Source of the DNA: a virus
DNA length: 24,203 nucleotides
Strand: one strand, 5' to 3'
Virus record (IMG/VR): IMGVR_UViG_3300044613_004858
Location: 1-24,203 of that record
In this document: one piece after another, positions 287 to 23,763 of the stretch
How positions within the stretch are numbered: the stretch's first letter is position 1
Layout: each line of letters starts with the position of its first letter
Program-made: the position numbers and the translations under genes
Notes under the pieces: generated by a model
Told to the model about the DNA's origin: nothing
Database searches by the model: none
What the model saw: only the letters and a program-made list of their open reading frames with translations

Positions 287-1027
287 TTAAACCTTTACCA
301 CTCCAAGCATGCGATTTCTTACATCCCGCCAACCAATCATATTAGGAACTTCAAAGTCACCATTTCTTACCAATAGCAAGCCGTTTTCTTTAACAGCGCC
401 CATGATTTTGTTAATATCAAATTTATATTTGTTCATATCCCAGAATATTATTTTATATTTTTTTTCAGGTTCAAGTTCTGTTGTAAGCTTCATGCTATGT
501 TGAAACATATGTTTATTTTCTAGAACATAATCATCAAGAACTAATGTTTCTGTTTCATCTTCTGTGAAGAAAAATGACCATATATAACCAAATGGCATAT
601 TGCCATATTGGTCACTAAGTCTATAGTAGTGTGGCGATTTGTTTGTGTAATAAAAATGCCACTCATCTTTAAAAAATTCTTTTAAATTAATTTTCTCATA
701 ATTTCTTAGAACCAAATCAGCATCAGTATCAAATTTCAATGGAGACTCTGAAAAAGCACCTTTGACCAACATGCTTTCACAATATTTTTTAATATAATTG
801 TTTACATAATCAATATTTTTGATTAATTCTTCATCACAAAACACATTAAAAAAACATCTTTTTTGAATAATAGACTTTAAAAAACATGTATTAGCAAGAG
901 ATCTGTCTCCGAATAAAAATATTTTAACATTTTTATCTTCCAGACTGTTATCAAATTTAGAATACCATTTACCGAATGGTAAGCCGGGTGCATTTTGAAA
1001 AACGAATCTTAAAGCTGGTTGACTCAT
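287..1027 (-). CDS. Hypothetical protein, 246 aa
   Basis: The protein starts MSQPALRFVFQ and is rich in aromatic and charged residues, with no obvious signal peptide or membrane segment. I recognise no catalytic motif. The start codon overlaps the stop of the spoVR gene in an ATGA arrangement, so translation is probably coupled to it. That makes this the first gene after the PrkA-YeaH-SpoVR trio on the same likely transcript. The position suggests an accessory role to the trio, but the sequence itself does not show one. Confidence 0.75.
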   Translation of the reverse strand: MSQPALRFVFQNAPGLPFGKWYSKFDNSLEDKNVKIFLFGDRSLANTCFLKSIIQKRCFFNVFCDEELIKNIDYVNNYIKKYCESMLVKGAFSESPLKFDTDADLVLRNYEKINLKEFFKDEWHFYYTNKSPHYYRLSDQYGNMPFGYIWSFFFTEDETETLVLDDYVLENKHMFQHSMKLTTELEPEKKYKIIFWDMNKYKFDINKIMGAVKENGLLLVRNGDFEVPNMIGWRDVRNRMLGVVKV

Positions 1028-2619
1028 AGCCGCATCAATTGCTCCCTACTAATCGTCTTGGGATCAGCAAGCGAATAGTCACCATTCATATCTTGACAAT
1101 AATAAAACACTTCATCATTATTGTGATTGATTGTTTGCAATGCTACAGGTTGTCTCATTAAAAGGCAAATAGATTTAATTACTTCATAAGCATATGGTTT
1201 ATACAATTCTAAACCATCAGAATAATGTTGTATAAAGAAAATATTCCCTTTAAAATTAGGTTCAACTAATTTAATGTTTGGCAATCCTCTATTGATATGT
1301 TTCTTAAGAAGATTCTTTTTGATCTTCTTGTAATCATGACTTTCAATCTTAACTTCACCAGTTGGATATCTTTTGTATTCAAAGAACTCATTCTTTTCAC
1401 AAAAATCTTTAGTAAAGAATTCATTAATTAACTGAAAATCATCATAGTTTTTGCAAACTTCAAACACCTTTTCTTTACCTAATCCTAATTTTTGATCCCA
1501 ATTTTCTTTAAGTAATGGATCTGTGCAAGATTCATATTCGCTTCCGAATCTGCCTTTGTTCCATCTTTCTTCAATATCCATCAAAAGAGTAAAGCCAAGT
1601 TTATATGGATTGGTGCTATATTTGCCTCCAAGCACACCTGCTTTATGAATTGAATATTCAACAATCCCAGCGTCTTCTGCTTCTTGTCCAAGGCTGCAAT
1701 AGCCTTGTTTAGCAATAATATTGTAGTCTGTCCATGAGGCTAGACCTTCGTTGCATACTTTAGTTTTACCTTGTGGGCTAAAATAAATTGCTTCGTTGTA
1801 AAGAATTTCTGCAATATCTCGTTGCCAAGGTTTGAATGGTGCGTTTTCTTTAATATACCCAAATACATCAGATTCTGGGTTAGCCATCATATTCAGATCA
1901 TTTAATATTTCTCGTTCTTCAATTTTTGTATTTTGAGCATCAATAAATTCTTTTGTATTGATCCAGTCTTCCATGTAATCATTTTTTGTTTTAATTCTTC
2001 TTGGGAAAGAGTATTCTCTTTTATCTGTGATTACAACTTCTTTAGCTTTTCTTTCTTTCCAAATATTCATTGGATCGACAAGTGTTTCAAGACGCATTAA
2101 ATTATCAATAAATTCTGTAACAGTTTCTCTTCCATATCGAGACATGTATTTTCTTACATTAGATCCATTGTTGGCAAGTTCATTATGAGCATTCGTATTA
2201 GTTCTAGAAAAATGAATGTTATTCTTGAAGAAATGAACATGCCCAAGAGCATGAGCAATAACCGTAATATTATCAAGAATTGTGTTTGAATTTAGACAAT
2301 ATAGATATGATGGATTACAGTTGATAACCATTTCATATATTCTATGGTTGCCGTGCAGATAACCACGTTGCATTTCTTCGTATTCAGCGCCAAACTTCCA
2401 ATGTGGATATCTTACTGCAAATCCACCATAGCTTGCAACTTCACTCATTTCATCATGAGAAAGCATTTGTACAATGGTTGGATAAAAATCAAGACCAAAA
2501 TCTTTACAAGCTTTAAAAATGGTAGGGATATGTTTCTGTAGTTCTTCTGGAATTGGCACACCGGGGGTGGTTGCTGATCCAAACAGAACAGGTGAACCAA
2601 ATAAGAATTTATCACTCAT
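1024..2619 (-). CDS. spoVR: SpoVR family protein
   Basis: This is a SpoVR/YcgB family protein of 531 residues, near the usual length. The family signature is clear at residues 64-80 (YGGFAVRYPHWKFGAEY), followed by IYEMVINCNPSYLY and the His-rich AHALGHVHFFKNN around 122-134. SpoVR was named for a Bacillus spore-cortex role; YcgB is the enterobacterial stress-response homologue. Its biochemical activity is not established. In bacteria it is commonly encoded with PrkA and a DUF444 vWA protein, and the same three occur here in the same order and strand. It starts just after the DUF444 stop. The conserved histidines are present, so nothing suggests decay. Confidence 0.93.
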   Translation of the reverse strand: MSDKFLFGSPVLFGSATTPGVPIPEELQKHIPTIFKACKDFGLDFYPTIVQMLSHDEMSEVASYGGFAVRYPHWKFGAEYEEMQRGYLHGNHRIYEMVINCNPSYLYCLNSNTILDNITVIAHALGHVHFFKNNIHFSRTNTNAHNELANNGSNVRKYMSRYGRETVTEFIDNLMRLETLVDPMNIWKERKAKEVVITDKREYSFPRRIKTKNDYMEDWINTKEFIDAQNTKIEEREILNDLNMMANPESDVFGYIKENAPFKPWQRDIAEILYNEAIYFSPQGKTKVCNEGLASWTDYNIIAKQGYCSLGQEAEDAGIVEYSIHKAGVLGGKYSTNPYKLGFTLLMDIEERWNKGRFGSEYESCTDPLLKENWDQKLGLGKEKVFEVCKNYDDFQLINEFFTKDFCEKNEFFEYKRYPTGEVKIESHDYKKIKKNLLKKHINRGLPNIKLVEPNFKGNIFFIQHYSDGLELYKPYAYEVIKSICLLMRQPVALQTINHNNDEVFYYCQDMNGDYSLADPKTISREQLMRL

Positions 2620-2621
2620 TT

Positions 2622-3812
2622 TTAAAATGTCCTATCCGCACTTGTGAACGGATTTCCAAGAATTTCTCTAATAGCACCTAGTATTGCTTCGTTCCGTTTT
2701 TCTTCATCCTTAAGAACACCATGCGGAATTTCTGTGACAATCACATTATCTCCTAATGTTCCTTCTATAATTTCTTTTTCCACTGCTTCTGCAACAGTTC
2801 CTTTATAAGTGTACGAACCAATTTGTGTTATAGAAGCCAAGTTGACTATATTTTGAGGAAATTCCTTTTTCAGCAGAGACACAAACTTTTCATTATCATT
2901 ATCATAATTTTCACCATCTGTGAAATAAAAGAAATAGATGTTCCAATTGTTAGGAGGAAATCTATTCTCAAATTGTTTTGCAACTAGATCTAAAGCTGTA
3001 GAACATGTGGTGCCGCCACCGTTTCTTATCCTATAGAAGTCCTTTGCATCTACTTCGTGAGCAGCAACGTCATGCCAAACATAAAGTCTTTCGACTCTTT
3101 GATAAAAACTTCTGATATAAGTGTCGATCCAATAAGCCATATCAGACACAACAGAAACTTTATTATCATCCATTGATCCGCTAGCATCTCTAGCAAAGAT
3201 AACAACTGCGTTGCTTGAAGGAAAGACAATTTCGTTATATTGTCTGTACCTTTTGTCACTATTAATAGGATTAATCATCCTGACTTTATCTTTAAAGCCG
3301 GGAATTTCGTACATTTCGTTGATTTCGCCAGTGCCACAAAGACGTTTCAAAGCCTGAAGCATTGTTCTACGAGTGTGACGAAGAGATTCTGGACCAACAA
3401 GAGAAATGTTATTATATTTGATTTTTACATCTTCAAGATTGGCATTTTCTTTTGGTTTGATATCAGGAAGACTGAGTTCTTCTTTCATGAAATGAAGAAT
3501 ATCTTCCATATCTAACTGGACAATGATGCCTTCACTTTCATCTTGTCCAGCACCATTACCATTTCCTTTTGATCCACCATCTTTACCGATGGTGTCGCCA
3601 TCTTTGCCATCTCCACGCCCAACACCATTAGGATTCCTACCATGAAGAAAATGAGGAATGTCAATTGATGGTATTTTGATTGAAACTTTACCGTTTTTAC
3701 CACGGTGGCGAAATACTTCGCCACTCTTGATAAACTTCTTCAAGTTTTTTCTGATTCTACCGCTGACAATATCTCTAAAGTCTTTATGGTCGGAATCAAT
3801 CCTTCTTGGCAT
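2622..3812 (-). CDS. yeaH: YeaH/YhbH (DUF444) von Willebrand A-like protein
   Basis: This is a DUF444 protein of 396 residues. The N-terminus (MPRRIDSDHKDFRDIVSGRI) and the Gly/Asp-rich low-complexity stretch at about 58-95 fit the family. A vWA fold follows with an apparently complete metal site: DASGS at 209-213, the GGGTTCST threonine loop, and YFTDGEN later. Such domains bind a divalent metal and mediate protein contacts. In enterobacteria YeaH acts with the kinase YeaG/PrkA in sustained stress and nutrient limitation. The gene sits between prkA (15 bases upstream) and spoVR (2 bases downstream). GGGGA precedes the ATG. It probably partners the PrkA kinase, by analogy. Confidence 0.92.
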   Translation of the reverse strand: MPRRIDSDHKDFRDIVSGRIRKNLKKFIKSGEVFRHRGKNGKVSIKIPSIDIPHFLHGRNPNGVGRGDGKDGDTIGKDGGSKGNGNGAGQDESEGIIVQLDMEDILHFMKEELSLPDIKPKENANLEDVKIKYNNISLVGPESLRHTRRTMLQALKRLCGTGEINEMYEIPGFKDKVRMINPINSDKRYRQYNEIVFPSSNAVVIFARDASGSMDDNKVSVVSDMAYWIDTYIRSFYQRVERLYVWHDVAAHEVDAKDFYRIRNGGGTTCSTALDLVAKQFENRFPPNNWNIYFFYFTDGENYDNDNEKFVSLLKKEFPQNIVNLASITQIGSYTYKGTVAEAVEKEIIEGTLGDNVIVTEIPHGVLKDEEKRNEAILGAIREILGNPFTSADRTF

Positions 3813-3827
3813 TGATGTCCCCTTAAA

Positions 3828-5903
3828 TTAGAATAGGTCTTCTGCTAAATCGCCTCTTGCAAAAATACTGCTTACATAATCAAGCACATCTGTTGCGCTC
3901 TGCTCATTATAACCATATTTTTCAACAAGTCTTTGCTTGACCGCATCAATCTTCTTTTGAACATCTGGGTCAACTGTTGTTGCTCCAGATGAAAATGCAC
4001 TCAATTTAATGTGATCTTTTGTATCCTCAAACAACTTTGATTCCAAAGCTTTCTTGAGAAGAGGGTTGCTATCCCATCTGAAAGTCTTACCTTTTACTGC
4101 AAGATCGCCAATAAAAGCTGCAATCATACGCCGGAAATCATCACAAGTAGATTCTGGAACATCAATCTTGCTCTCAATAGATCGCATTAGCTTTTCATCT
4201 GGACTTTCTTCTCGTCCAGTAATCTTATTAGTAATTCTTGCTTTATTGATGTAAGCCATCAAATTGTCGATATAATTTGCACAAAGCCTGACAATTGCCT
4301 CTTCATCTCCCACAAGAGCCTTTTGAACTTCGTTCTTAAGAATGTCATCAAGCTTCTTAGTTGCAAGAGTAATGCAGTTTTGATACTTGCGTACCAAATC
4401 TTTGTTAGAAATAAGAGAATGATTCTCAAGTCCACTCTTCAAAGCATTCAGCACCATGAATGGATTAATATAATCATGTCTGCTTGATAAGGTAGAAGAA
4501 ATCTTGTCCTGTACATATCTTGCAGACATGCCAGTCATACCTTCATTTGGGTTCTTATCCTTAATCTCTCTAACTCTATCAATTGTCCATCCGGGCAACA
4601 TCTTTCCATCATAGAGGTCTGCTTTTTCTGTCAAAGTGATCTTATTGTCCTTGTCATCTTCAAGCCTTGTAAGGACTGAAAACAGTGCAGCAATCTGTAA
4701 TGTGTGAGGAGCGATATGCTGCTTGATCTTATTTGAATTATAATCTTGTTCTAATACTTTGAGTTCCTTGCTCCATTCTAGGAGATAAGGAATTTCGATT
4801 CTTACAGTTCTGTCCTTCAAAGCTTCCATGTACTGATTGTTCTTTAACTTTTCGTATTCAGGAATATTGGTATGTCCGATGATAGCTTCATCAATGCTAA
4901 TCTGAGAAAACTTTTTAGGCTTAATTGACTTTTCTTGTGATGCTCCAAGAAGATCGTACAAGAAAGCTGTTTCAAGCTTTAGCATTTCAATAAATTCGAT
5001 AACTCCACGATTTGCAACGCAGAATTCACCATCGAAATTAAATGTTCTTGGATCAGAATCACTTCCGAATGTTGGAAGTAGAGCAAAATTGATATCACCA
5101 GTAAGTTCTGTGCTATCTTGATTCTTTTCATCTTTAGGCTGGAAAGAAGCAATACCAACTCTATCTGCTTCAGAATATTGTTTTCTGACAACAACAATGT
5201 GGTTATTTACAACTTTAACCCAATCTCCATTGTACATCTTGAGCAATTTGTCAAAGAAAAACTTACATTTTGGATTAATTTCACCTTCTACATTGAGGCT
5301 GTAGAGAGTTGTTCTTTGTGATGGATCAGCATTATCCCTATGAATCTTATTCAATTCCTCAAGTACTTGCTTTCTTACTGCAAGAGGAAGAAGCTTGATT
5401 GGATCTTCGTTCATTGGGCATTCACAAGTGTCGCTTGTGTAGAAGCCATTTTGTCCTGTTGGCAGATTGACCCACTTGTAGGAATACCAAGCGCCATTTT
5501 CAGTCTTGGAATAATCTTCCATATTACGCTTGATTAATCGACAAATAGTAGACTTGGCAGAGCCTACAGGTCCGCATAGAAGAAGGATGCGTTTTTCTGG
5601 ACCGTAATGTCCTGCGGCACCCTTGAAATGAGCAACCAAAGACTCAAGCTGATCTTCGATACCAAAAACTTTAATTTCTTCATGATTTTCAAAAAATTTA
5701 TAGGTTACGATCTTCTTGCGATACTTATCAATTTCTTCTGTCCCGAAAGAAGTGATCATGTCGTAAATTCTTTGATGAGAATTACGAGCTAATTTTGGAT
5801 TACTGTAACATCTGTTAAGATATTCTTCAAAACCAAGCTCTTCATGGAGCTTCTTATAATCATCAAGATTGTTGTTATTAGCAAACTGTGTCAAACTAAC
5901 CAT
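3828..5903 (-). CDS. prkA: PrkA/YeaG serine protein kinase with AAA domain
   Basis: This 691-residue protein is slightly longer than typical bacterial PrkA. The N-terminal AAA module has a PrkA-type Walker A, GPVGSAKST, at 111-119. It also has the family segment ANRGVIEFIEMLK and the later stretch GHTNIPEYEKLKNNQYMEALKDRTV, which closely follow bacterial PrkA. The C-terminal part (about 420-691) corresponds to the PrkA C-terminal region. PrkA is described as a Ser/Thr protein kinase of stationary phase, stress and sporulation. SD-like GGAGAGG lies about 8 bases before the ATG. The gene begins 1 base after the FmdB stop and leads the trio. Motif conservation argues for an active protein; its substrate in infected cells is unknown. 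Confidence 0.94.
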   Translation of the reverse strand: MVSLTQFANNNNLDDYKKLHEELGFEEYLNRCYSNPKLARNSHQRIYDMITSFGTEEIDKYRKKIVTYKFFENHEEIKVFGIEDQLESLVAHFKGAAGHYGPEKRILLLCGPVGSAKSTICRLIKRNMEDYSKTENGAWYSYKWVNLPTGQNGFYTSDTCECPMNEDPIKLLPLAVRKQVLEELNKIHRDNADPSQRTTLYSLNVEGEINPKCKFFFDKLLKMYNGDWVKVVNNHIVVVRKQYSEADRVGIASFQPKDEKNQDSTELTGDINFALLPTFGSDSDPRTFNFDGEFCVANRGVIEFIEMLKLETAFLYDLLGASQEKSIKPKKFSQISIDEAIIGHTNIPEYEKLKNNQYMEALKDRTVRIEIPYLLEWSKELKVLEQDYNSNKIKQHIAPHTLQIAALFSVLTRLEDDKDNKITLTEKADLYDGKMLPGWTIDRVREIKDKNPNEGMTGMSARYVQDKISSTLSSRHDYINPFMVLNALKSGLENHSLISNKDLVRKYQNCITLATKKLDDILKNEVQKALVGDEEAIVRLCANYIDNLMAYINKARITNKITGREESPDEKLMRSIESKIDVPESTCDDFRRMIAAFIGDLAVKGKTFRWDSNPLLKKALESKLFEDTKDHIKLSAFSSGATTVDPDVQKKIDAVKQRLVEKYGYNEQSATDVLDYVSSIFARGDLAEDLF

Positions 5904-5904
5904 G

Positions 5905-6231
5905 TTATTTTACCTCTCCAAAGTGATTGCCACTAGAAATATCATCAATCGGATTATACGGAGTTGTTCCCATATGGGAAGAACTTTCTGCTTTTCTTCT
6001 TAGATCTTGAGCTTGTTCCAAGTTATATCCAGCCCTGTAATTAAAATTATCAAATTTACTAGTGTCTTTAGGTTGGGCGAACTTAATATTAGCATCATTT
6101 ATTAATTTTTTCTTTTTCTTCGAATTACAATCAGGACATGAAACGCTAGCGTATCGACCTTTTGGATCGAAAGACGCTAGTGCTTCGTAGTTTTTATCAC
6201 AGTTTTTACAAGCAAAATTATATGTAGGCAA
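5905..6231 (-). CDS. FmdB-type zinc-ribbon protein
   Basis: This 108-residue protein starts at TTG, read as MPTYNFACKNC. That matches the very conserved beginning of FmdB/CxxC_CxxC regulatory-type zinc ribbons (MPTYEYxC), so the TTG is well supported. AAGGG lies about 8 bases upstream. Two knuckles, C8-x2-C11 and C32-x2-C35, should bind one zinc, followed by a Lys run. The rest (about 45-108) is polar and probably disordered. The family is small and usually annotated as putative regulators without proven function. The gene directly precedes prkA, which suggests co-expression. The coding sequence contains an inverted repeat (CTAGCGT/ACGCTAG, near 6147-6179) of unclear meaning. Confidence 0.85.
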   Translation of the reverse strand: MPTYNFACKNCDKNYEALASFDPKGRYASVSCPDCNSKKKKKLINDANIKFAQPKDTSKFDNFNYRAGYNLEQAQDLRRKAESSSHMGTTPYNPIDDISSGNHFGEVK

Positions 6232-6281: not shown

Positions 6282-6560
6282 TTAATCTTGAATCAATTTT
6301 TTTAATTCATTATAAGCAATTTTAATTTTTTCCATTTTATTTTTTAATGATATAAACGACCAAAACCAAGAACTTTTACAAATTTTCAATGATTCCTCAA
6401 GCAATTTTGTTTGAATTTCTTGCTCAAGAAGAATATTTTGTTCCATCTGTATGGCTAACATTTGAGAATCGATGAAACTTTCGTTTCCGTCTTCATCTTC
6501 ATCTTCAAAGTCGTCATCGAACTCATCATCGCCATATGTTTCAAAATCAAATCTTTTCAT
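6282..6560 (-). CDS. Acidic hypothetical protein, 92 aa
   Basis: The N-terminal 27 residues are extremely acidic (a nearly continuous D/E tract from residue 9 to 25). The rest is helical, rich in Q, E, K and L (residues about 33-60 and 72-90), compatible with a coiled coil. A small aromatic patch, SSWFWSF, lies between. The start overlaps the stop of the upstream gene (ATGA), indicating coupled translation. Acidic tail plus coiled coil is common in small phage regulators and DNA mimics, but no family is recognised and no role is claimed. Confidence 0.7.
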   Translation of the reverse strand: MKRFDFETYGDDEFDDDFEDEDEDGNESFIDSQMLAIQMEQNILLEQEIQTKLLEESLKICKSSWFWSFISLKNKMEKIKIAYNELKKLIQD

Positions 6561-7135
6561 GGCGGTGCCTCCTTATCCAAAAGAGTTCTTATGTTCTTAG
6601 CATCATTCCAAAATGATTCAAGTTTAATTTGATTTAAACTCTTATCACCTAAAAAGATGCTATTACTATTTACTATCCTATCTCTGACTTCTTCAAAATT
6701 ATTTTGAATATTCCAATGAACTAAATCATAACACTTATTTTCTTCCATTTTCCCATAAGAAACCGAATCAGTATCATGAACAGGACTGGTTATCAATACA
6801 TATTTGTCTCTAATGTTTCGTGTAAATTTAAATTTGTTCATACAAAAAACATTTGATACAACAATAGCACAAGATCTATCCCATATATTAATTCTTGTAA
6901 GAATGGTTGGATTGAAACATGAATGAACATAAAATACAGGAATTCCAATTTTTCTTGCCCAAGGAACCATATCGACTTGAGAATTTCCTGAAACAAAAAT
7001 TACTGGATTTACTTTTGGCATGTTCTTGTAAAAAGAAAACCAACATAGAAATGACAAAACATCATATGGTTTGTATGGAGGGACAACAATACCTAGATTG
7101 AACTTTGGATATTTAATTTCTGGAAATAGAACCAT
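6557..7135 (-). CDS. Hypothetical protein, 192 aa
   Basis: The frame is open two codons further to a TTG at 7138, but the ATG at 7135 overlaps the stop of the upstream 52-aa gene (TGATG), so it is the better start. The protein begins MVLFPEIKYPKFNLGIVVPPY and has short hydrophobic, beta-like segments (NPVIFVSGN, GIPVFYVHSC, CAIVVSNVF, KYVLITSPV). That alternating pattern would suit a Rossmann-like fold, as in some glycosyltransferases. No catalytic signature can be named, so this is only a guess. It is linked by overlap to genes on both sides. Confidence 0.68.
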   Translation of the reverse strand: MVLFPEIKYPKFNLGIVVPPYKPYDVLSFLCWFSFYKNMPKVNPVIFVSGNSQVDMVPWARKIGIPVFYVHSCFNPTILTRINIWDRSCAIVVSNVFCMNKFKFTRNIRDKYVLITSPVHDTDSVSYGKMEENKCYDLVHWNIQNNFEEVRDRIVNSNSIFLGDKSLNQIKLESFWNDAKNIRTLLDKEAPP

Positions 7136-7293
7136 CAAAACTTAAAGAGTTTCTTTCTCATATTTTTTGGAGATTTAGGGAAATGTGGTCCAACTGTTTT
7201 TGGAATATTCATCCTCAATACAGTAAAGCTGTTATGGCGACTGCCACCATGACCATTTCTTTCATCAAGTTGTAAGAAGTCTTTGAAAGTCAT
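7135..7293 (-). CDS. Small basic protein with capsid-targeting-like N-terminus, 52 aa
   Basis: This ORF of 52 codons lies exactly between two genes, overlapping the upstream stop (ATGA) and the downstream start (TGATG). It begins MTFKDFLQLDE, closely resembling the T4 capsid-targeting peptide (MKTYQEFIAEA) and ending in an L-x-E site of the kind cut by T4 prohead protease gp21. The remaining 41 residues are Gly/His then Lys/Arg-rich (tail KNMRKKLFKF), plausible for a DNA-contacting internal head peptide. The mature role is inferred. Precise packing with neighbours and sharing of the N-terminal tag with other proteins here are the main support. Confidence 0.72.
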   Translation of the reverse strand: MTFKDFLQLDERNGHGGSRHNSFTVLRMNIPKTVGPHFPKSPKNMRKKLFKF

Positions 7294-7607
7294 GGATTTC
7301 CACCCAAAGCAGCATTAACTAAAGCAGCGGCGTTGGCAGCAGGATTAGCAGCAGTCACCTGTGCCATTGCTGTTAAAAATTTAGGATCTTCTCTTAATTT
7401 TTTTATTGCGCCTTTTTGATCTCCCGTAGAAAATAGACGAAGAGCAACTGGATTGGCTTTTGCTGCTGTTTCAAGAGCAGTTCTAGTAGCTGGATTTATA
7501 GGCTTGGTAGGTGCTGGTGTCTTAGTAGTAGCACTAGTTGTTCCTACAGCTGGAATAGTAGCTGCGGCTTCTTCAATTTGATTCATATATTTTTTAAATG
7601 ATAACAT
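7290..7607 (-). CDS. Ala/Thr/Pro-rich protein with capsid-targeting-like N-terminus, 105 aa
   Basis: The N-terminus MLSFKKYMNQIEEA fits the tag pattern (F-x-x-Y, then I-E-E followed by Ala), matching the T4 gp21 cleavage preference [LI]-x-E before A/G. After it comes a low-complexity Thr/Ala/Pro stretch (about 15-45), then an Ala-rich helical region with repeated AANPAANAAA-like composition. The protein is probably processed and packaged in the head, by analogy with T4 internal proteins. It heads the long minus-strand block that includes prkA. The minus strand upstream of the ATG reads CTAAATAAATAGAG, somewhat like a T4 late promoter. Confidence 0.72.
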   Translation of the reverse strand: MLSFKKYMNQIEEAAATIPAVGTTSATTKTPAPTKPINPATRTALETAAKANPVALRLFSTGDQKGAIKKLREDPKFLTAMAQVTAANPAANAAALVNAALGGNP

Positions 7608-7635: not shown

Positions 7636-7764
7636 ATGAAAACATTTATCACATTGGTAGTGGCTTTTGTTTTAGGTTTTTTTGTTGGTGTAACTTCAAC
7701 AATCATTGGACAGTTTCACTACTGCCCATTTGTTAAAGCAAAACTCATCCATAAGCATGAATGA
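7636..7764 (+). CDS. Small single-pass membrane peptide, 42 aa
   Basis: A strong ribosome site, AGGAGG, lies about 9 bases before the ATG of a 42-residue ORF. It begins MKTFITLVVAFVLGFFVGVT, a clean transmembrane helix or signal anchor with a GxxxG-like face, then has a short basic, His-containing tail (KAKLIHKHE). Its last 20 bases overlap the 3' end of the convergent hldE-like gene, so the two mRNAs are antisense there. The excellent ribosome site and hydrophobic profile support a real gene. Function is unknown; small phage membrane peptides often affect lysis or host membrane proteins, but nothing here proves that. Confidence 0.65.
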   Translation: MKTFITLVVAFVLGFFVGVTSTIIGQFHYCPFVKAKLIHKHE

Positions 7765-9115
7765 TTTTATCAATAATATTAGTTGTTGATAGACCTTCGA
7801 CCAAAGGAATGAATTCAATTCTATCAACAACATTGGCTCCAGCAATGTTTTTACCTCGCCAATCTTCACCCTTAACCAAAACATTTGGTTTAATTGATTC
7901 AATTGCATTTTGAGGGAAATCTTCTTCTAAAACAAAAATAAAATCTACATATTTTATTGCTTTTAACATTTCAATTCTTTGAGACAAAGGTATGATTGGT
8001 CTTTTTTCACCCTTCAATTTAGCTATACTCTCATCTGAATTAATACCAACACAGAGTTTGTCGCCAAAAGATTTTGCTTGTTTTAAAGATGATATATGTC
8101 CGTAATGTGTAAGATCCATACAGCCATTAGTCCACACTAGGCTAAAATCCCTGTTTCTTAACACAGCAGGATTATCAATCACTTTATCTTCAACAAAAAA
8201 ATCTGATGGGTTTAAAGGTTTGTTATAACGGTTAGCAACATAATTAATCCCAGCTTCAAACGAAATGTTTAATGATTCTAAAAAATCGATGCCTACACCT
8301 AGTGACATTGCCAAGAATGCCATGTATGCATCTCCAGCACCAATTACGCTTTCTGGTTTTATTACTTTTTTACTAGGTGTTACATGATATATTTTGTCAT
8401 TATCATCAATTGCATCTACACATTCCCCTGCATTTGTAATAACAACATTATTACATCCTAACAATGCATGAAGCCATTTCAACTGATCTTCAACTTTTTC
8501 TTTGCTGACAAATCTTTTTGCTTCAACAGCATTAGGCTTAAATAAATAACATCCTTCCCAAATGTTAAGATTCTTTTTGGGATCAACGAGCGATTTAATT
8601 TGCTTTAAATATTTTTTATGCCAATTTGTTGAAAATAATCCTTTATCATAATCTGAAAAAATATTAATATCTGCTTCTGGAATCTTGAGTTCTTCAAGAT
8701 AAGAGTCAATATTGCTTAGTCCAAAATTAGACTTTTCAATATCCCATCTGGTTAAAGGGTGAAAATCTTTGTAAAATCTTCTTTTTATTGGGTTGTTAAT
8801 TTTTTCATCAACAATTGAATATTGAGTATTTATTCCATTTGAAGAACAAATTTGTTCTGATTTAGGGTTCAACAAAGAGATAATATTAACTTTTACATTA
8901 AAATTGCGGAATTGATAAGCAACATTAGCTGCACCTCCGCATAATGTCTGATATGGTTCAGATGTATTAGAACTGTGAACTGGAATTGGAAATTCTGGAC
9001 TTATTCTGTCAACTTCAACATGATAATATTCATCAATAATAACATCTCCAATAACATTAATTGTTATTGGTTTAACAAAAAGCTTATCTATTAATTTTGA
9101 AAAAATATTGTTCAT
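7745..9115 (-). CDS. hldE: Bifunctional HldE-like heptose kinase / cytidylyltransferase-fold protein
   Basis: This 456-residue protein has the two-domain HldE (RfaE) layout. Residues about 18-310 are a PfkB/ribokinase domain, with GDVIIDEYY, RISPEFPIPV (38-47), GGAANVA (60-66) and the catalytic VIGAGDAY (258-264). Residues about 323-456 are a nucleotidyltransferase domain with TNGCMDLTHYGH (329-340, HxGH site), NSDES, LVKGEDW and STTNIIDKI. In bacteria HldE phosphorylates heptose-7-phosphate at C1 and adenylylates it, yielding ADP-heptose for lipopolysaccharide core. Both active sites look intact. No epimerase or heptosyltransferase is recognised in this window. No SD is visible; TATATT lies 6 bases before the ATG, so the mRNA may be leaderless. 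The exact sugar substrate could differ. Confidence 0.88.
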   Translation of the reverse strand: MNNIFSKLIDKLFVKPITINVIGDVIIDEYYHVEVDRISPEFPIPVHSSNTSEPYQTLCGGAANVAYQFRNFNVKVNIISLLNPKSEQICSSNGINTQYSIVDEKINNPIKRRFYKDFHPLTRWDIEKSNFGLSNIDSYLEELKIPEADINIFSDYDKGLFSTNWHKKYLKQIKSLVDPKKNLNIWEGCYLFKPNAVEAKRFVSKEKVEDQLKWLHALLGCNNVVITNAGECVDAIDDNDKIYHVTPSKKVIKPESVIGAGDAYMAFLAMSLGVGIDFLESLNISFEAGINYVANRYNKPLNPSDFFVEDKVIDNPAVLRNRDFSLVWTNGCMDLTHYGHISSLKQAKSFGDKLCVGINSDESIAKLKGEKRPIIPLSQRIEMLKAIKYVDFIFVLEEDFPQNAIESIKPNVLVKGEDWRGKNIAGANVVDRIEFIPLVEGLSTTNIIDKIIHAYG

Positions 9116-11211: not shown

Positions 11212-12018
11212 ATGAGTTTTCCATCAATATATTTCGACGGTTATTATCGTATTCTTTCACACACACCAAGTCCAGAAAATGATACTCCAAAGTTTGGAGA
11301 TGCGTTCAAGAGCTTTAACGCTGCTGTTCTTAAAGAAATTGATATGTCTTGGCAAGGGCATAGAATCCTAAACCAAAAGTCAACTAACAGCTGTGTTGGT
11401 CATGCATCTGCTGCTGGAATGGAAATTTTGCAAAAGCAACGTCAAAACATTCAAAAAAGTTTCAATCCATTCTTCCACTATGCTTTAATTAATGGTGGAC
11501 AAGATGGTGGAGCTTATATTTCAGATAGCCTTAATATGCTTAGAAAGTATGGAATCTGCGAAACAAGTGCATTCCCACATGACCGTGTTTATTACAAGAG
11601 CAGTCTAACCAAGGCTTCTTATGACAATGCTGCTAGATTTAAGCTGGGATATGCTTATCAATGTGACACATTTGAAGAAGTTTGCCAAGCAATCAATCTT
11701 GGTTTTGTTGTAAACATCGGTATCCTTGTTGGATCTAACTTTATTAAAGTTGATTCAGAAGGTATTTCTCCACTTCCAAATGGTGGTGGTGGAGGACATT
11801 CAATGCTTGCATGCGGAATAAAACAACATAGCAAGTATGGCTGGTTGGTAAAACTTCAGAATAGTTGGGGTTCCAGTTTTGGATTAGGTGGCTATTGCTA
11901 TGTTAGAAAAGAACATTTTACAAGCCGAAGCAAGCTTGATTGTTTTGCTTTCCAAGGTATTGTGGAAGATCATCTAGATAAAGATCCGGCAGACGATGTC
12001 CCTGTTGTTAAAGTATAA
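11212..12018 (+). CDS. Papain-like (C1) cysteine peptidase
   Basis: This 268-residue protein has the C1 peptidase signatures in order: oxyanion Gln55 and nucleophile Cys61 in NQKSTNSCVGHASA, His196 in GGGGHSMLACG, and Asn217 in LQNSWGSSFGLGGY. It therefore has all residues of a papain-type active site. Unlike most papains it has no signal peptide and little room for an inhibitory prodomain; the first 45 residues are short. It could act in the cytoplasm, in the virion, or after lysis. Papain-like enzymes are uncommon in phages. The gene is 1 base after an exported protein gene and is followed by a membrane-associated protein, so target and partner may be local. Confidence 0.88.
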   Translation: MSFPSIYFDGYYRILSHTPSPENDTPKFGDAFKSFNAAVLKEIDMSWQGHRILNQKSTNSCVGHASAAGMEILQKQRQNIQKSFNPFFHYALINGGQDGGAYISDSLNMLRKYGICETSAFPHDRVYYKSSLTKASYDNAARFKLGYAYQCDTFEEVCQAINLGFVVNIGILVGSNFIKVDSEGISPLPNGGGGGHSMLACGIKQHSKYGWLVKLQNSWGSSFGLGGYCYVRKEHFTSRSKLDCFAFQGIVEDHLDKDPADDVPVVKV

Positions 12019-22394: not shown

Positions 22395-22826
22395 ATGTCA
22401 ATACCTTTACGATTTACCGAATGGTTGGAAGAAAGAGATAACGAATTACATGAATCTCTTAAAAGATGGATTGCAGGAATAGGTGCTGGTGCAACTTTAG
22501 CTGCCGGTGCTGCTGGATTACTACCTTCATCTAAACTAAAACAACCAGCAAGTCAACAAATAGGAAATTCTTCTGTTTCCGTAGAGCACGAAAAAAATGA
22601 AAAAGGTCAGACCTATTTTTGGTCTTTCAGCTTCAGGAATTATAGCGGTTCATCTCAAGAAGCAAAAAAAGAAGCTATGAATCAAGTTAGAGAAGAACTT
22701 TTACGACAATTTGGTCGTGCATCAGGTATCGTAGCCGAAGTGCAAAGCGATGATGGAAAAGGAAATATCGTCGTTGATGTAACGCAAGTTAATACATCAA
22801 GCGTTCGTGCTGCAAATAACGATTAA
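22395..22826 (+). CDS. Tagged protein with Gly/Ala-rich segment, 143 aa
   Basis: The N-terminus MSIPLRFTEWLEERDNELHES contains the tag pattern (R-F-T-E-W-L-E-E) and two possible [LI]-x-E sites (LEE, LHE). A Gly/Ala-rich hydrophobic stretch follows (IAGIGAGATLAAGAAGLLP, about 27-45), then a beta segment (TYFWSFSFRNYSG), SSQEAKKEAMNQVREELLRQ helix, and a final beta segment (GNIVVDVTQV). This last module resembles the one in the convergent 188-aa neighbour, which has the same tag-plus-glycine layout. Probably a virion-internal protein. GAGAAAAA before the ATG is a weak SD; TAATAAATA lies about 35 bases upstream. Confidence 0.7.
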   Translation: MSIPLRFTEWLEERDNELHESLKRWIAGIGAGATLAAGAAGLLPSSKLKQPASQQIGNSSVSVEHEKNEKGQTYFWSFSFRNYSGSSQEAKKEAMNQVREELLRQFGRASGIVAEVQSDDGKGNIVVDVTQVNTSSVRAANND

Positions 22827-22844
22827 AATACTTATCATTCAGAT

Positions 22845-23411
22845 TTAAGGTTCAATCGTTGCGTCATTAGATGTGATTTTAATTTTTACTCGATGAACAG
22901 CATTAGAAAACTCTCGAATTATTTTAGCGTATAATGCGTTTTCATTCTTATCTACAAATATCTTCTTTAATCCTCTAATAGCTGACCCTTGCATATTCAT
23001 TTTGCCAGTTTCACGCATGATCAATCTAATTAACATTTGTTTTGCTTCTTCTTTTGAAGGAGCTTCAATTGTTGCTTCAATCTCAACAACAGCTTCCATC
23101 TTGCCTTGATGATGTTCCTCGATAATTTCAATCAAAAGATCTTGCACATGAGGATCTCTTTTAACTGCTCTAATAATTTGTTCCTTGTACATTGTCCAAG
23201 ATTTAATAAATCGTTCGTCATCACCAAGTTGCTTGTGAGACGTAATTGGGTTCGTCAACGTAGAACCCGAAAAATGATGAACAGAAGGTTCTTCCGCTTT
23301 AGATTGACCAGCAAACATTGAAGCTGCACCTAACGCTAACCCACCAAGCAAACCAAGTCTGCCTTCATCCAATTGAGATTCTCTTAACTGAACATATTCA
23401 TTAAATGTCAT
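22845..23411 (-). CDS. Tagged protein with Gly-rich segment, 188 aa
   Basis: It begins MTFNEYVQLRESQLDEGRLG, with the tag and two cleavage-like sites (LRE/S and LDE/G, the latter the better match to T4 gp21 preference). Next is LGLLGGLALGAASMFAG (about 18-34), a Gly-rich hydrophobic segment. The main domain (about 60-188) is helical with a beta segment, MEAVVEIEATIEAPSKEEAKQ, comparable with the neighbour at 22395. The start overlaps the preceding gene by 11 bases. Predicted to be cut by the prohead protease and packaged, by analogy to T4. Confidence 0.73.
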   Translation of the reverse strand: MTFNEYVQLRESQLDEGRLGLLGGLALGAASMFAGQSKAEEPSVHHFSGSTLTNPITSHKQLGDDERFIKSWTMYKEQIIRAVKRDPHVQDLLIEIIEEHHQGKMEAVVEIEATIEAPSKEEAKQMLIRLIMRETGKMNMQGSAIRGLKKIFVDKNENALYAKIIREFSNAVHRVKIKITSNDATIEP

Positions 23412-23763
23412 CTGAATCCTTTTGTTTATTTAGATAACGATCATACTTAGAACCCGGAACAGGTTTTAAATTGAATTTTTCAAAAAGTGATTCTATATCA
23501 AATTCGCCATGAAGAGGTACAAAAAAATCTTTTATAGTATAAATGCTTCCACTTTTTGTATGAATGTCATAGTTATATCCATTGGTTTCTGAAGGTTGAT
23601 TTACACTTACAATCATGCTTGTTCTACCAATTCGTTTTTCTGGTATTTCTAAAGTAAAAGGATTACCATGAGCCTTATCACGATGATGAAAAACCGTTGC
23701 TGTGTCAGCAAAAATATGATCTCCAGCACCTTCTCTTAACTGAACATATTCATGAAACTTCAT
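23401..23763 (-). CDS. Tagged protein, 120 aa
   Basis: It starts MKFHEYVQLREGAGDH. EYVQLRE is identical to the tag of the next gene, and LRE/G is an ideal cleavage-type site. The body is polar and beta-like (SMIVSVNQ, YDIHTKSGSIYTI), ending with a Lys/Asp-rich tail. AGGAG lies 7 bases before the ATG. Upstream is copy 2 of the 26-27 base repeat, with a CTAAATAG late-promoter-like core. It overlaps the downstream tagged gene by 11 bases. Function beyond probable packaging is not recognised. Confidence 0.73.
   Translation of the reverse strand: MKFHEYVQLREGAGDHIFADTATVFHHRDKAHGNPFTLEIPEKRIGRTSMIVSVNQPSETNGYNYDIHTKSGSIYTIKDFFVPLHGEFDIESLFEKFNLKPVPGSKYDRYLNKQKDSDDI

Follow-up and report, generated by a model that had tools for sequence, protein, structure and literature searches.

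Does the PrkA-DUF444-SpoVR gene trio found on a fragment of viral DNA belong to the phage that carries it, and if so, what might it do there? We addressed this question with IMG/VR virus record IMGVR_UViG_3300044613_004858, whose full 24,203 bases, a size that marks it as a fragment, are called the window here. A first-pass annotation made from the letters alone had described a complete, same-strand trio with an FmdB-type zinc-ribbon partner at 1024-6231 and intact Walker A, metal ion-dependent adhesion site (MIDAS) and SpoVR signatures. Profile matches bear out all four genes:

1024..2619, minus strand: SpoVR-family protein of 531 amino acids (aa); PF04293, E = 5e-97; invariant columns among 70 sequences; predicted zincin-like fold
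2622..3812, minus strand: DUF444/YeaH-family protein, 396 aa; PF04285, E = 1e-61; VWA fold by model comparison (Z 15.6; Foldseek E = 2.5e-7); intact MIDAS
3828..5903, minus strand: PrkA/YeaG-family AAA+ ATPase, 691 aa; PF08298, E = 5e-78, and PF06798, E = 5e-74
5905..6231, minus strand: FmdB-type zinc ribbon, 108 aa, TTG start; PF09723, E = 1e-9; a neighbour of the module in phages

The signatures are likewise intact: GPVGSAKST in PrkA, D209, S211, S213, T268 and D299 in DUF444, and the SpoVR motifs. From the zinc ribbon to SpoVR, the four genes are separated by gaps of 1, 15 and 2 bases.

Linkage and trees show that the module has been inherited as one unit in a large group of jumbo phages. 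IMG/VR viral contigs contain 131 stretches with relatives of the window's PrkA, and the best 80 of the 131 were used (PrkA-anchored loci); in these and the other phmmer counts, near-identical contigs from different samples entered as separate loci. DUF444 and SpoVR follow PrkA on the same strand in all 65 loci that have at least 5.5 kb downstream, the other 15 being too short for this count. Searching with a SpoVR alignment returned 503 viral stretches with relatives, from which the best 80 were kept and 77 were newly fetched (SpoVR-anchored loci). PrkA and DUF444 lie upstream of SpoVR on the same strand in 74 of these 77, so both sets display the co-occurrence that the first-pass annotation had proposed to look for. 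The three exceptions are two short fragments (5-6 kb) and a locus, L328, that has DUF444 and SpoVR but whose 9 kb of upstream sequence lacks a PrkA match; L328 is a possible natural partial module. Contigs bearing SpoVR relatives reach 511 kb.

We reject bacterial contamination on the grounds of the window's phage-like flanks together with capsid and terminase genes on related contigs. The flanks match profiles for UvsX, a phage-type helicase, ThyX and an HldE-like gene, and no bacterial flank, the finding that would have undone the first-pass claim, was seen within the 24,203-base record. Capsid and terminase searches covered 32 of the 80 PrkA-anchored loci. T4-type Gp23 capsid matches exceeded the cut-off in 8 of these 32 longer related contigs, some of them as short partial matches, and terminase exceeded it in 2.

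For each of the three proteins, the tree separates all sampled jumbo copies (46 of 69 rows for PrkA, 37 of 79 for SpoVR and 49 of 90 for DUF444) from the sampled bacteria at a branch whose Shimodaira-Hasegawa-like approximate likelihood ratio test (SH-aLRT) value is 100. This is the separate phage branch that the annotation had suggested checking for. The PrkA tree sets the Thermus phages apart, and the 635-kb phage LR745206 groups with the YeaG copy of the LAU1 record in the PrkA and DUF444 trees; LAU1 is not represented in the SpoVR tree. Judged from these groupings, at least three separate versions of the trio appear to exist in large phages, less surely for SpoVR and DUF444 because of long branches, and the DUF444 tree leaves the order of the Thermus-phage, bacterial and jumbo groups unsettled. 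The trees are quick ones with SH-aLRT support only, in which the Thermus and LR745206 rows are long-branched and drew program warnings, and the PrkA tree is unrooted with an outgroup of our choosing. Rows were dereplicated at 90% (phage) and 72% (bacteria). Jumbo SpoVR open reading frames (ORFs) over 600 aa, rows beyond set length limits and loci L082-L090 (mostly re-fetched contigs, with the distinct contig L084 among them) were left out, and three Thermus-phage PrkA rows outside the length limit were kept in the PrkA tree. Bacterial rows are the best 80 of 545 window matches, a sample that could hide deeper bacterial structure.

Where it can be measured, purifying selection on the trio is strong. 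The ratio of nonsynonymous to synonymous substitution rates (dN/dS) ranges from 0.03 to 0.12 in those trio pairs with estimable dS, 9 of 18. The values are rough, as dS exceeds 1 for 8 of these 9; in the other 9 pairs dS is saturated. Together, the trees and the selection lead us to reject a recent single capture, and nothing resembling the decaying acquisition against which the annotation had warned was found. These results also bear on the idea that the trio is passive cargo, a host stress operon without a selected role. Bacteria do share the gene order: all three genes lie within the fetched flanks of 57 of 80 bacterial loci, 54 of them in the window's order and strand. Against this stand the long-stemmed branch of the phage copies, the low dN/dS, the near-complete linkage and the presence of the trio in several phage lineages, and we regard passive carriage as very improbable.

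What, then, could the phage proteins do? The window's PrkA matches the AAA_PrkA and PrkA C-terminal domains over its full length (263 and 250 bits, where both cut-offs are 25). Its residues 10-683 match PDB entries 9xip, 9xiq and 9xir, all named 'Serine protein kinase' (9xip, E = 4e-206); a literature search found no paper behind the 9xip structure. The first-pass annotation had suggested that the phage might use the kinase to alter host proteins. Phosphorylation of host proteins by PrkA, acting as a serine kinase, would agree with the name of PF06798, 'PrkA serine protein kinase C-terminal domain', and with work on E. coli YeaG: the accessible part of PMC4664914 states earlier in vitro kinase activity and reports that complementation fails with K116A, R232A or K426A and likewise when the C-terminal domain is lost. 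In our alignment, the Walker A lysine (YeaG K116; window K117) is lysine in 32 of 32 PrkA rows. The K426 position is aspartate in 29 of the 32 (D466 in the window), serine in one, and lysine only in the YeaG copy and LR745206. A lysine does stand one residue further along in 24 of the 32 rows, so a one-residue alignment shift could matter here and rescue K426. Purified B. anthracis PrkA had undetectable kinase and negligible protease activity, according to the accessible part of PMC13001217. Because K426 is lost in most rows and the B. anthracis protein lacks detectable kinase activity, we favour a motor reading of PrkA over a kinase reading. Signalling by phosphorylation seems improbable, and this part of the earlier interpretation is not supported.

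The partner proteins suggest what such a motor might drive. In its structural model (mean predicted local distance difference test score, pLDDT, 77), DUF444 folds as a MIDAS-bearing VWA domain. VIA aligned the model with VWA domains over 161 residues at 2.9 Å (Z 15.6), Foldseek matched it to VWA domains as well (E = 2.5e-7), and the five MIDAS residues are invariant in 69 aligned DUF444 proteins. Chain 9qhe_G of a NorQD complex (subunit unstated) is among the Foldseek matches, with E = 1.8e-5; since any VWA domain would match, we treat this as a fold-level analogy. PDB sequence searches with SpoVR and DUF444 returned nothing useful.

SpoVR carries the candidate metal site. The window protein matches PF04293 over residues 25-442 of 531 (326 bits against a cut-off of 27), and 17 positions, including E96, H123, H127, E291 and G292, are invariant in 70 sequences from phages and bacteria. 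These residues include an H-x3-H...E arrangement in which H123-x3-H127 is followed, after 163 residues, by E291 within N-E-G-x-A. In the SpoVR model (mean pLDDT 84), H123 and H127 sit in helix 114-133, E291 lies near the start of helix 287-304, and strand 96-99 precedes the two helices. Zincin active sites are usually built in this way, from a strand and two such helices. When 497 Foldseek candidates were compared with the model by VIA, the 50 rows shown were mainly zincins of several families, a class that we presume from the entry titles. The best was 3o0y (putative lipoprotein, Z 10.9), with 3cmn (putative hydrolase, 9.9), LTA4 hydrolase (9.4), M32 (8.6), YbeY (7.8), vibriolysin (7.4), M61 (7.3) and ACE (7.0) also represented; ACE and ACE2 entries account for 24 of the 50 rows. 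SpoVR, as modelled, probably has a zincin-like fold. Its C-terminal domain (residues 450-531, window 1027-1272) drew four VIA rows, to CDC45, PAP phosphatase and RecJ2 (Z 4.9-6.1), and perhaps binds a small molecule or nucleotide.

The candidate site is also where inteins have settled. Large inserts occur in 17 of 91 distinct jumbo SpoVR ORFs (fragments included): six at site a, six at site b and five at both. Site a follows C101, near E96-x-V-x-N, and site b falls between A294 and S295 of NEGxA|S, beside E291. All four jumbo ORFs scanned exceed the cut-off for LAGLIDADG, and three of them exceed that for an intein splicing domain. Inserts in the site-b region were found in six distinct bacterial SpoVR ORFs as well; of the five scanned, four pass the cut-off for the splicing domain and three for LAGLIDADG, and the insert boundaries lie exactly at NEGWA|S in all five. 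Among the matches listed, the three LAGLIDADG-bearing bacterial inteins are 39-44% identical to phage site-b inteins, and the two short ones are more distant. The loci with inteins at this NEGxA|S position are L022, L025, L044, L053, L060, L081 and others in jumbo phages, and L095, L097, L106, L111 and L143 in bacteria. No such inserts were seen in PrkA or DUF444 ORFs, judged by length, and a literature search for SpoVR and inteins found no paper. Inteins favour conserved, important sites, so insertion beside E291 fits SpoVR as the active component. The same intein position is used in phages and bacteria, and homing may have crossed the phage-bacterium boundary.

Our preferred reading, which we hold tentatively, is that the phage has domesticated the trio as a motor, an adaptor and an effector that damp host metabolism. 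A PrkA oligomer would act as the AAA+ motor driving DUF444. DUF444 would be the VWA adaptor, gripping a client through its MIDAS and coupling the motor to it, and SpoVR, as a zincin-like metalloprotein, would be both client and effector. By analogy, such a layout would be akin to MoxR-type AAA+/VWA pairs such as NorQ-NorD. The zinc ribbon and an acidic protein encoded beside it could serve as phage-specific adaptors or regulators. The outcome would be a restrained host metabolism and therefore a stable host for a slow-replicating large phage; we infer this restraint because YeaG and YeaH form a 'metabolic brake' that quiesces metabolism in nitrogen-starved E. coli, as described in the accessible part of PMC10954441. 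That the phage imposes a stress-like host state is a reasonable inference from this analogy. This much of the first-pass interpretation survives, in that the trio is complete, phage-borne, on its own branch and under selection, and only its kinase component lacks support. A sporulation role for the phage trio is not needed, because the nearest bacteria, mainly Myxococcota, Chloroflexota, Planctomycetota and Bdellovibrionota, belong mostly to groups that do not form endospores.

Several observations weigh against the motor-adaptor-effector reading. Linkage of the trio is not strict outside the jumbo clade: the 642-kb huge phage LR756502.1 has PrkA and DUF444 at 274-277 kb, whereas its SpoVR match is at 520 kb, about 243 kb away. 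When contigs were taken by capsid marker, PrkA and SpoVR (PF06798, PF04293) appeared in 2 of 23, both already-known trio contigs, a result that does not show the trio to be universal core genes of the clade. These 23 of 80 fetched loci are mostly fragments, and since about 150 kb separates the capsid gene from the trio on a 320-kb contig, most of the negatives, the largest of which is 225 kb, are uninformative. For SpoVR itself, the position of the HExxH glutamate is alanine in 38 and valine in 32 of the 70 sequences (H123-A-L-G-H127 in the window). Foldseek gave no match to the SpoVR model at E ≤ 0.001; its best, at 0.14, was anthrax lethal factor, which we take to be a zincin. Most of the SpoVR Z scores from VIA lie between 5 and 9, a range where chance matches occur, and for this reason we call the zincin fold probable rather than shown. 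Finally, the position of YeaG R232, one of the residues needed for complementation, is A274 in the window and alanine, serine or glycine in 16 of 19 jumbo rows; it is retained in 8 of 8 rows of related bacteria.

The SpoVR site is equally central to the main rival, a split ATP-dependent protease that would remove host or defence proteins during infection, with DUF444 choosing the targets, PrkA unfolding them and SpoVR doing the cutting. Such a machine would make direct use of the probable zincin-like fold, the H-x3-H...E triad and a PrkA that is an AAA+ motor (PF08298), and limited protease activity has been reported for B. subtilis PrkA, as cited in PMC13001217. However, the glutamate missing from all 70 SpoVR sequences is the general base of HExxH, so SpoVR is at most a candidate peptidase. 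The negligible protease activity of pure B. anthracis PrkA also speaks against cutting, in an assay account that, in the accessible part of PMC13001217, makes no mention of SpoVR or DUF444. On balance we consider a split protease unlikely.

We are similarly doubtful of a bolder form of the preferred reading, in which the trio, with the phage-associated zinc ribbon, would be an ancient, phage-owned ATP machine, a standing infection tool of a large jumbo-phage group that large phages recruited independently at least three times because it quiesces the host without killing it; SpoVR, not PrkA, would be the effector. Still, the question reaches beyond phages. The bacterial trio is widespread, its mechanism is unexplained and its 'kinase' label is disputed. 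Phages have kept the trio for a long time, and their inteins adjoin a conserved candidate metal site; both facts draw attention to SpoVR as the effector and supply specific residues to test, and the cultured Thermus phages offer a system for a direct test of the trio's role in infection. A sporulation role has been proposed for viral spoVR in marine viromes (accessible part of PMC8940887); if phages quiet the host rather than sporulate it, such readings would need revision.

Four further genes complete the surroundings of the module:

6282..6560, minus strand: acidic protein, 92 aa, no assigned function; near the module in 59 of 80 jumbo loci (E ≤ 1e-5)
6557..7138, minus strand: fast-evolving protein, 193 aa, no assigned function; in 20 of 80 PrkA-anchored loci (E ≤ 1e-5)
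287..1027, minus strand: lineage-restricted protein, 246 aa, no assigned function; 4-base overlap with SpoVR
7745..9115, minus strand: HldE-like protein with PfkB (PF00294) and cytidylyltransferase-like (PF01467) domains; a frequent neighbour

Transcription on the minus strand would thus read through the 193-aa gene, the 92-aa gene, the zinc ribbon, PrkA, DUF444, SpoVR and the 246-aa gene, in that order. Of the 77 SpoVR-anchored loci, 57 have the zinc ribbon, 53 the acidic protein and 25 the 193-aa protein (E ≤ 1e-3 for the last), counted anywhere in the fetched stretches. With the window proteins as phmmer queries (E ≤ 1e-3), the 80 bacterial loci gave no match to any of the three. The zinc ribbon starts with TTG in the window, L004 and L006, and with ATG in L010, L022 and L040 (five loci compared with the window). 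The acidic protein has no Pfam family at E 0.01 and its window copy no PHROG at E 1, and no convincing Pfam match was obtained among 26 members of the 193-aa family; PHROG scans of these two neighbours were likewise unconvincing. The translationally coupled downstream gene noted in the first-pass annotation is real. It is found in only 6 of 80 PrkA-anchored (E ≤ 1e-5) and 7 of 77 SpoVR-anchored loci (E ≤ 1e-3), all near relatives of the window, which places it outside the core module.

The HldE-like gene, which accompanies the trio in 69 of the 80 PrkA-anchored jumbo loci, raises another explanation, that the trio matures a metalloenzyme of glycan or virion envelope chemistry. Thermus phage phiYS40 adds a second neighbour of this kind, a gene annotated as UDP-3-O-(3-hydroxymyristoyl) glucosamine N-acyltransferase, four genes upstream of DUF444. 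The case is one of neighbour association, and the 10 virion bands listed for Ralstonia phage RsoM2USA in the accessible account of that phage include neither SpoVR (ORF28) nor PrkA (ORF30). An envelope function is, in our estimate, as improbable as phosphorylation signalling.

Two other features of the window deserve mention. A C1 papain-like peptidase (PF00112) is encoded at 11212-12018 and recurs in 9 of 80 jumbo loci; to our knowledge, such peptidases are unusual in phages. The ORFs at 22845-23411 and 23401-23763 begin with a common peptide, M-x-F-x-E-Y-V-Q-L-R-E, with looser likeness in those at 22395-22826 and 7290-7607. We take this peptide to be reminiscent of T4-type prohead targeting or cleavage sequences.

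Single phage copies of these genes were known before. The records of phiYS40, TMA, phiLo and MN1 already name SpoVR and a serine kinase, and PHROGs holds families for all three trio proteins, mostly without function. The module as such is not treated in any paper among the matches listed in our literature search, whose coverage leaves out most subscription journals, and the terms searched for are absent from the main text of the huge-phage paper PMC7162821. The first-pass statement that no role is established for the whole trio in phages therefore stands within the literature searched, with the qualification that single genes had been annotated in Thermus phages, RsoM2USA and marine viromes.

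Comparison with known systems places the phage module closest to its bacterial counterpart, the same three families found in E. coli YeaG-YeaH-YcgB and in operons of Myxococcota, Chloroflexota and other groups. The window's PrkA is 50-55% identical to those of the 80 nearest bacteria kept (best 80 of 545). Unlike the bacterial genes, the phage copies form their own branch and have zinc-ribbon and acidic neighbours that are absent from the 80 bacterial loci. YeaG K426 is missing throughout the window's PrkA branch, bacteria included, whereas R232 is lost in 16 of 19 jumbo rows and kept in 8 of 8 bacterial rows.

Among phages, the 595-kb huge phage LR756511 has the same module with the zinc ribbon, its SpoVR, DUF444 and PrkA being 55, 48 and 63% identical to those of the window. 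In the Thermus phages phiYS40, TMA, phiLo, MN1 and Lalka, all three families lie close together, as in the window, but in the order DUF444-SpoVR-PrkA, and their PrkA is 27.5-31% identical and separate in the PrkA tree. The trio of LR745206 appears, on sequence grounds, to have a separate origin; its PrkA branches with the YeaG copy of the LAU1 record, the two being 64% identical. That record, Enterobacter phage LAU1 (MN688132.1, L176), opens with yeaG and yeaH. We treat these two genes not as a phage acquisition but as a possible host flank, probably left over in a prophage-derived record. According to the accessible part of PMC8504454, the Ralstonia jumbo phage RsoM2USA lists SpoVR and PrkA among its genes, but as single genes, with best matches in Vibrio and Alcanivorax.

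At the level of mechanism, two comparisons frame the proposal. SpoVR would resemble zincins such as M1 LTA4 hydrolase, M32, M4 and M61 in its probable fold, its invariant H-x3-H and its downstream glutamate, but they have the HExxH glutamate after the first histidine where SpoVR has alanine or valine. MoxR-type systems such as NorQ-NorD pair an AAA+ ATPase with a MIDAS-bearing VWA partner. The phage trio has the VWA part, and its AAA+ protein is assigned to PF08298, so the likeness would be one of analogy rather than membership.

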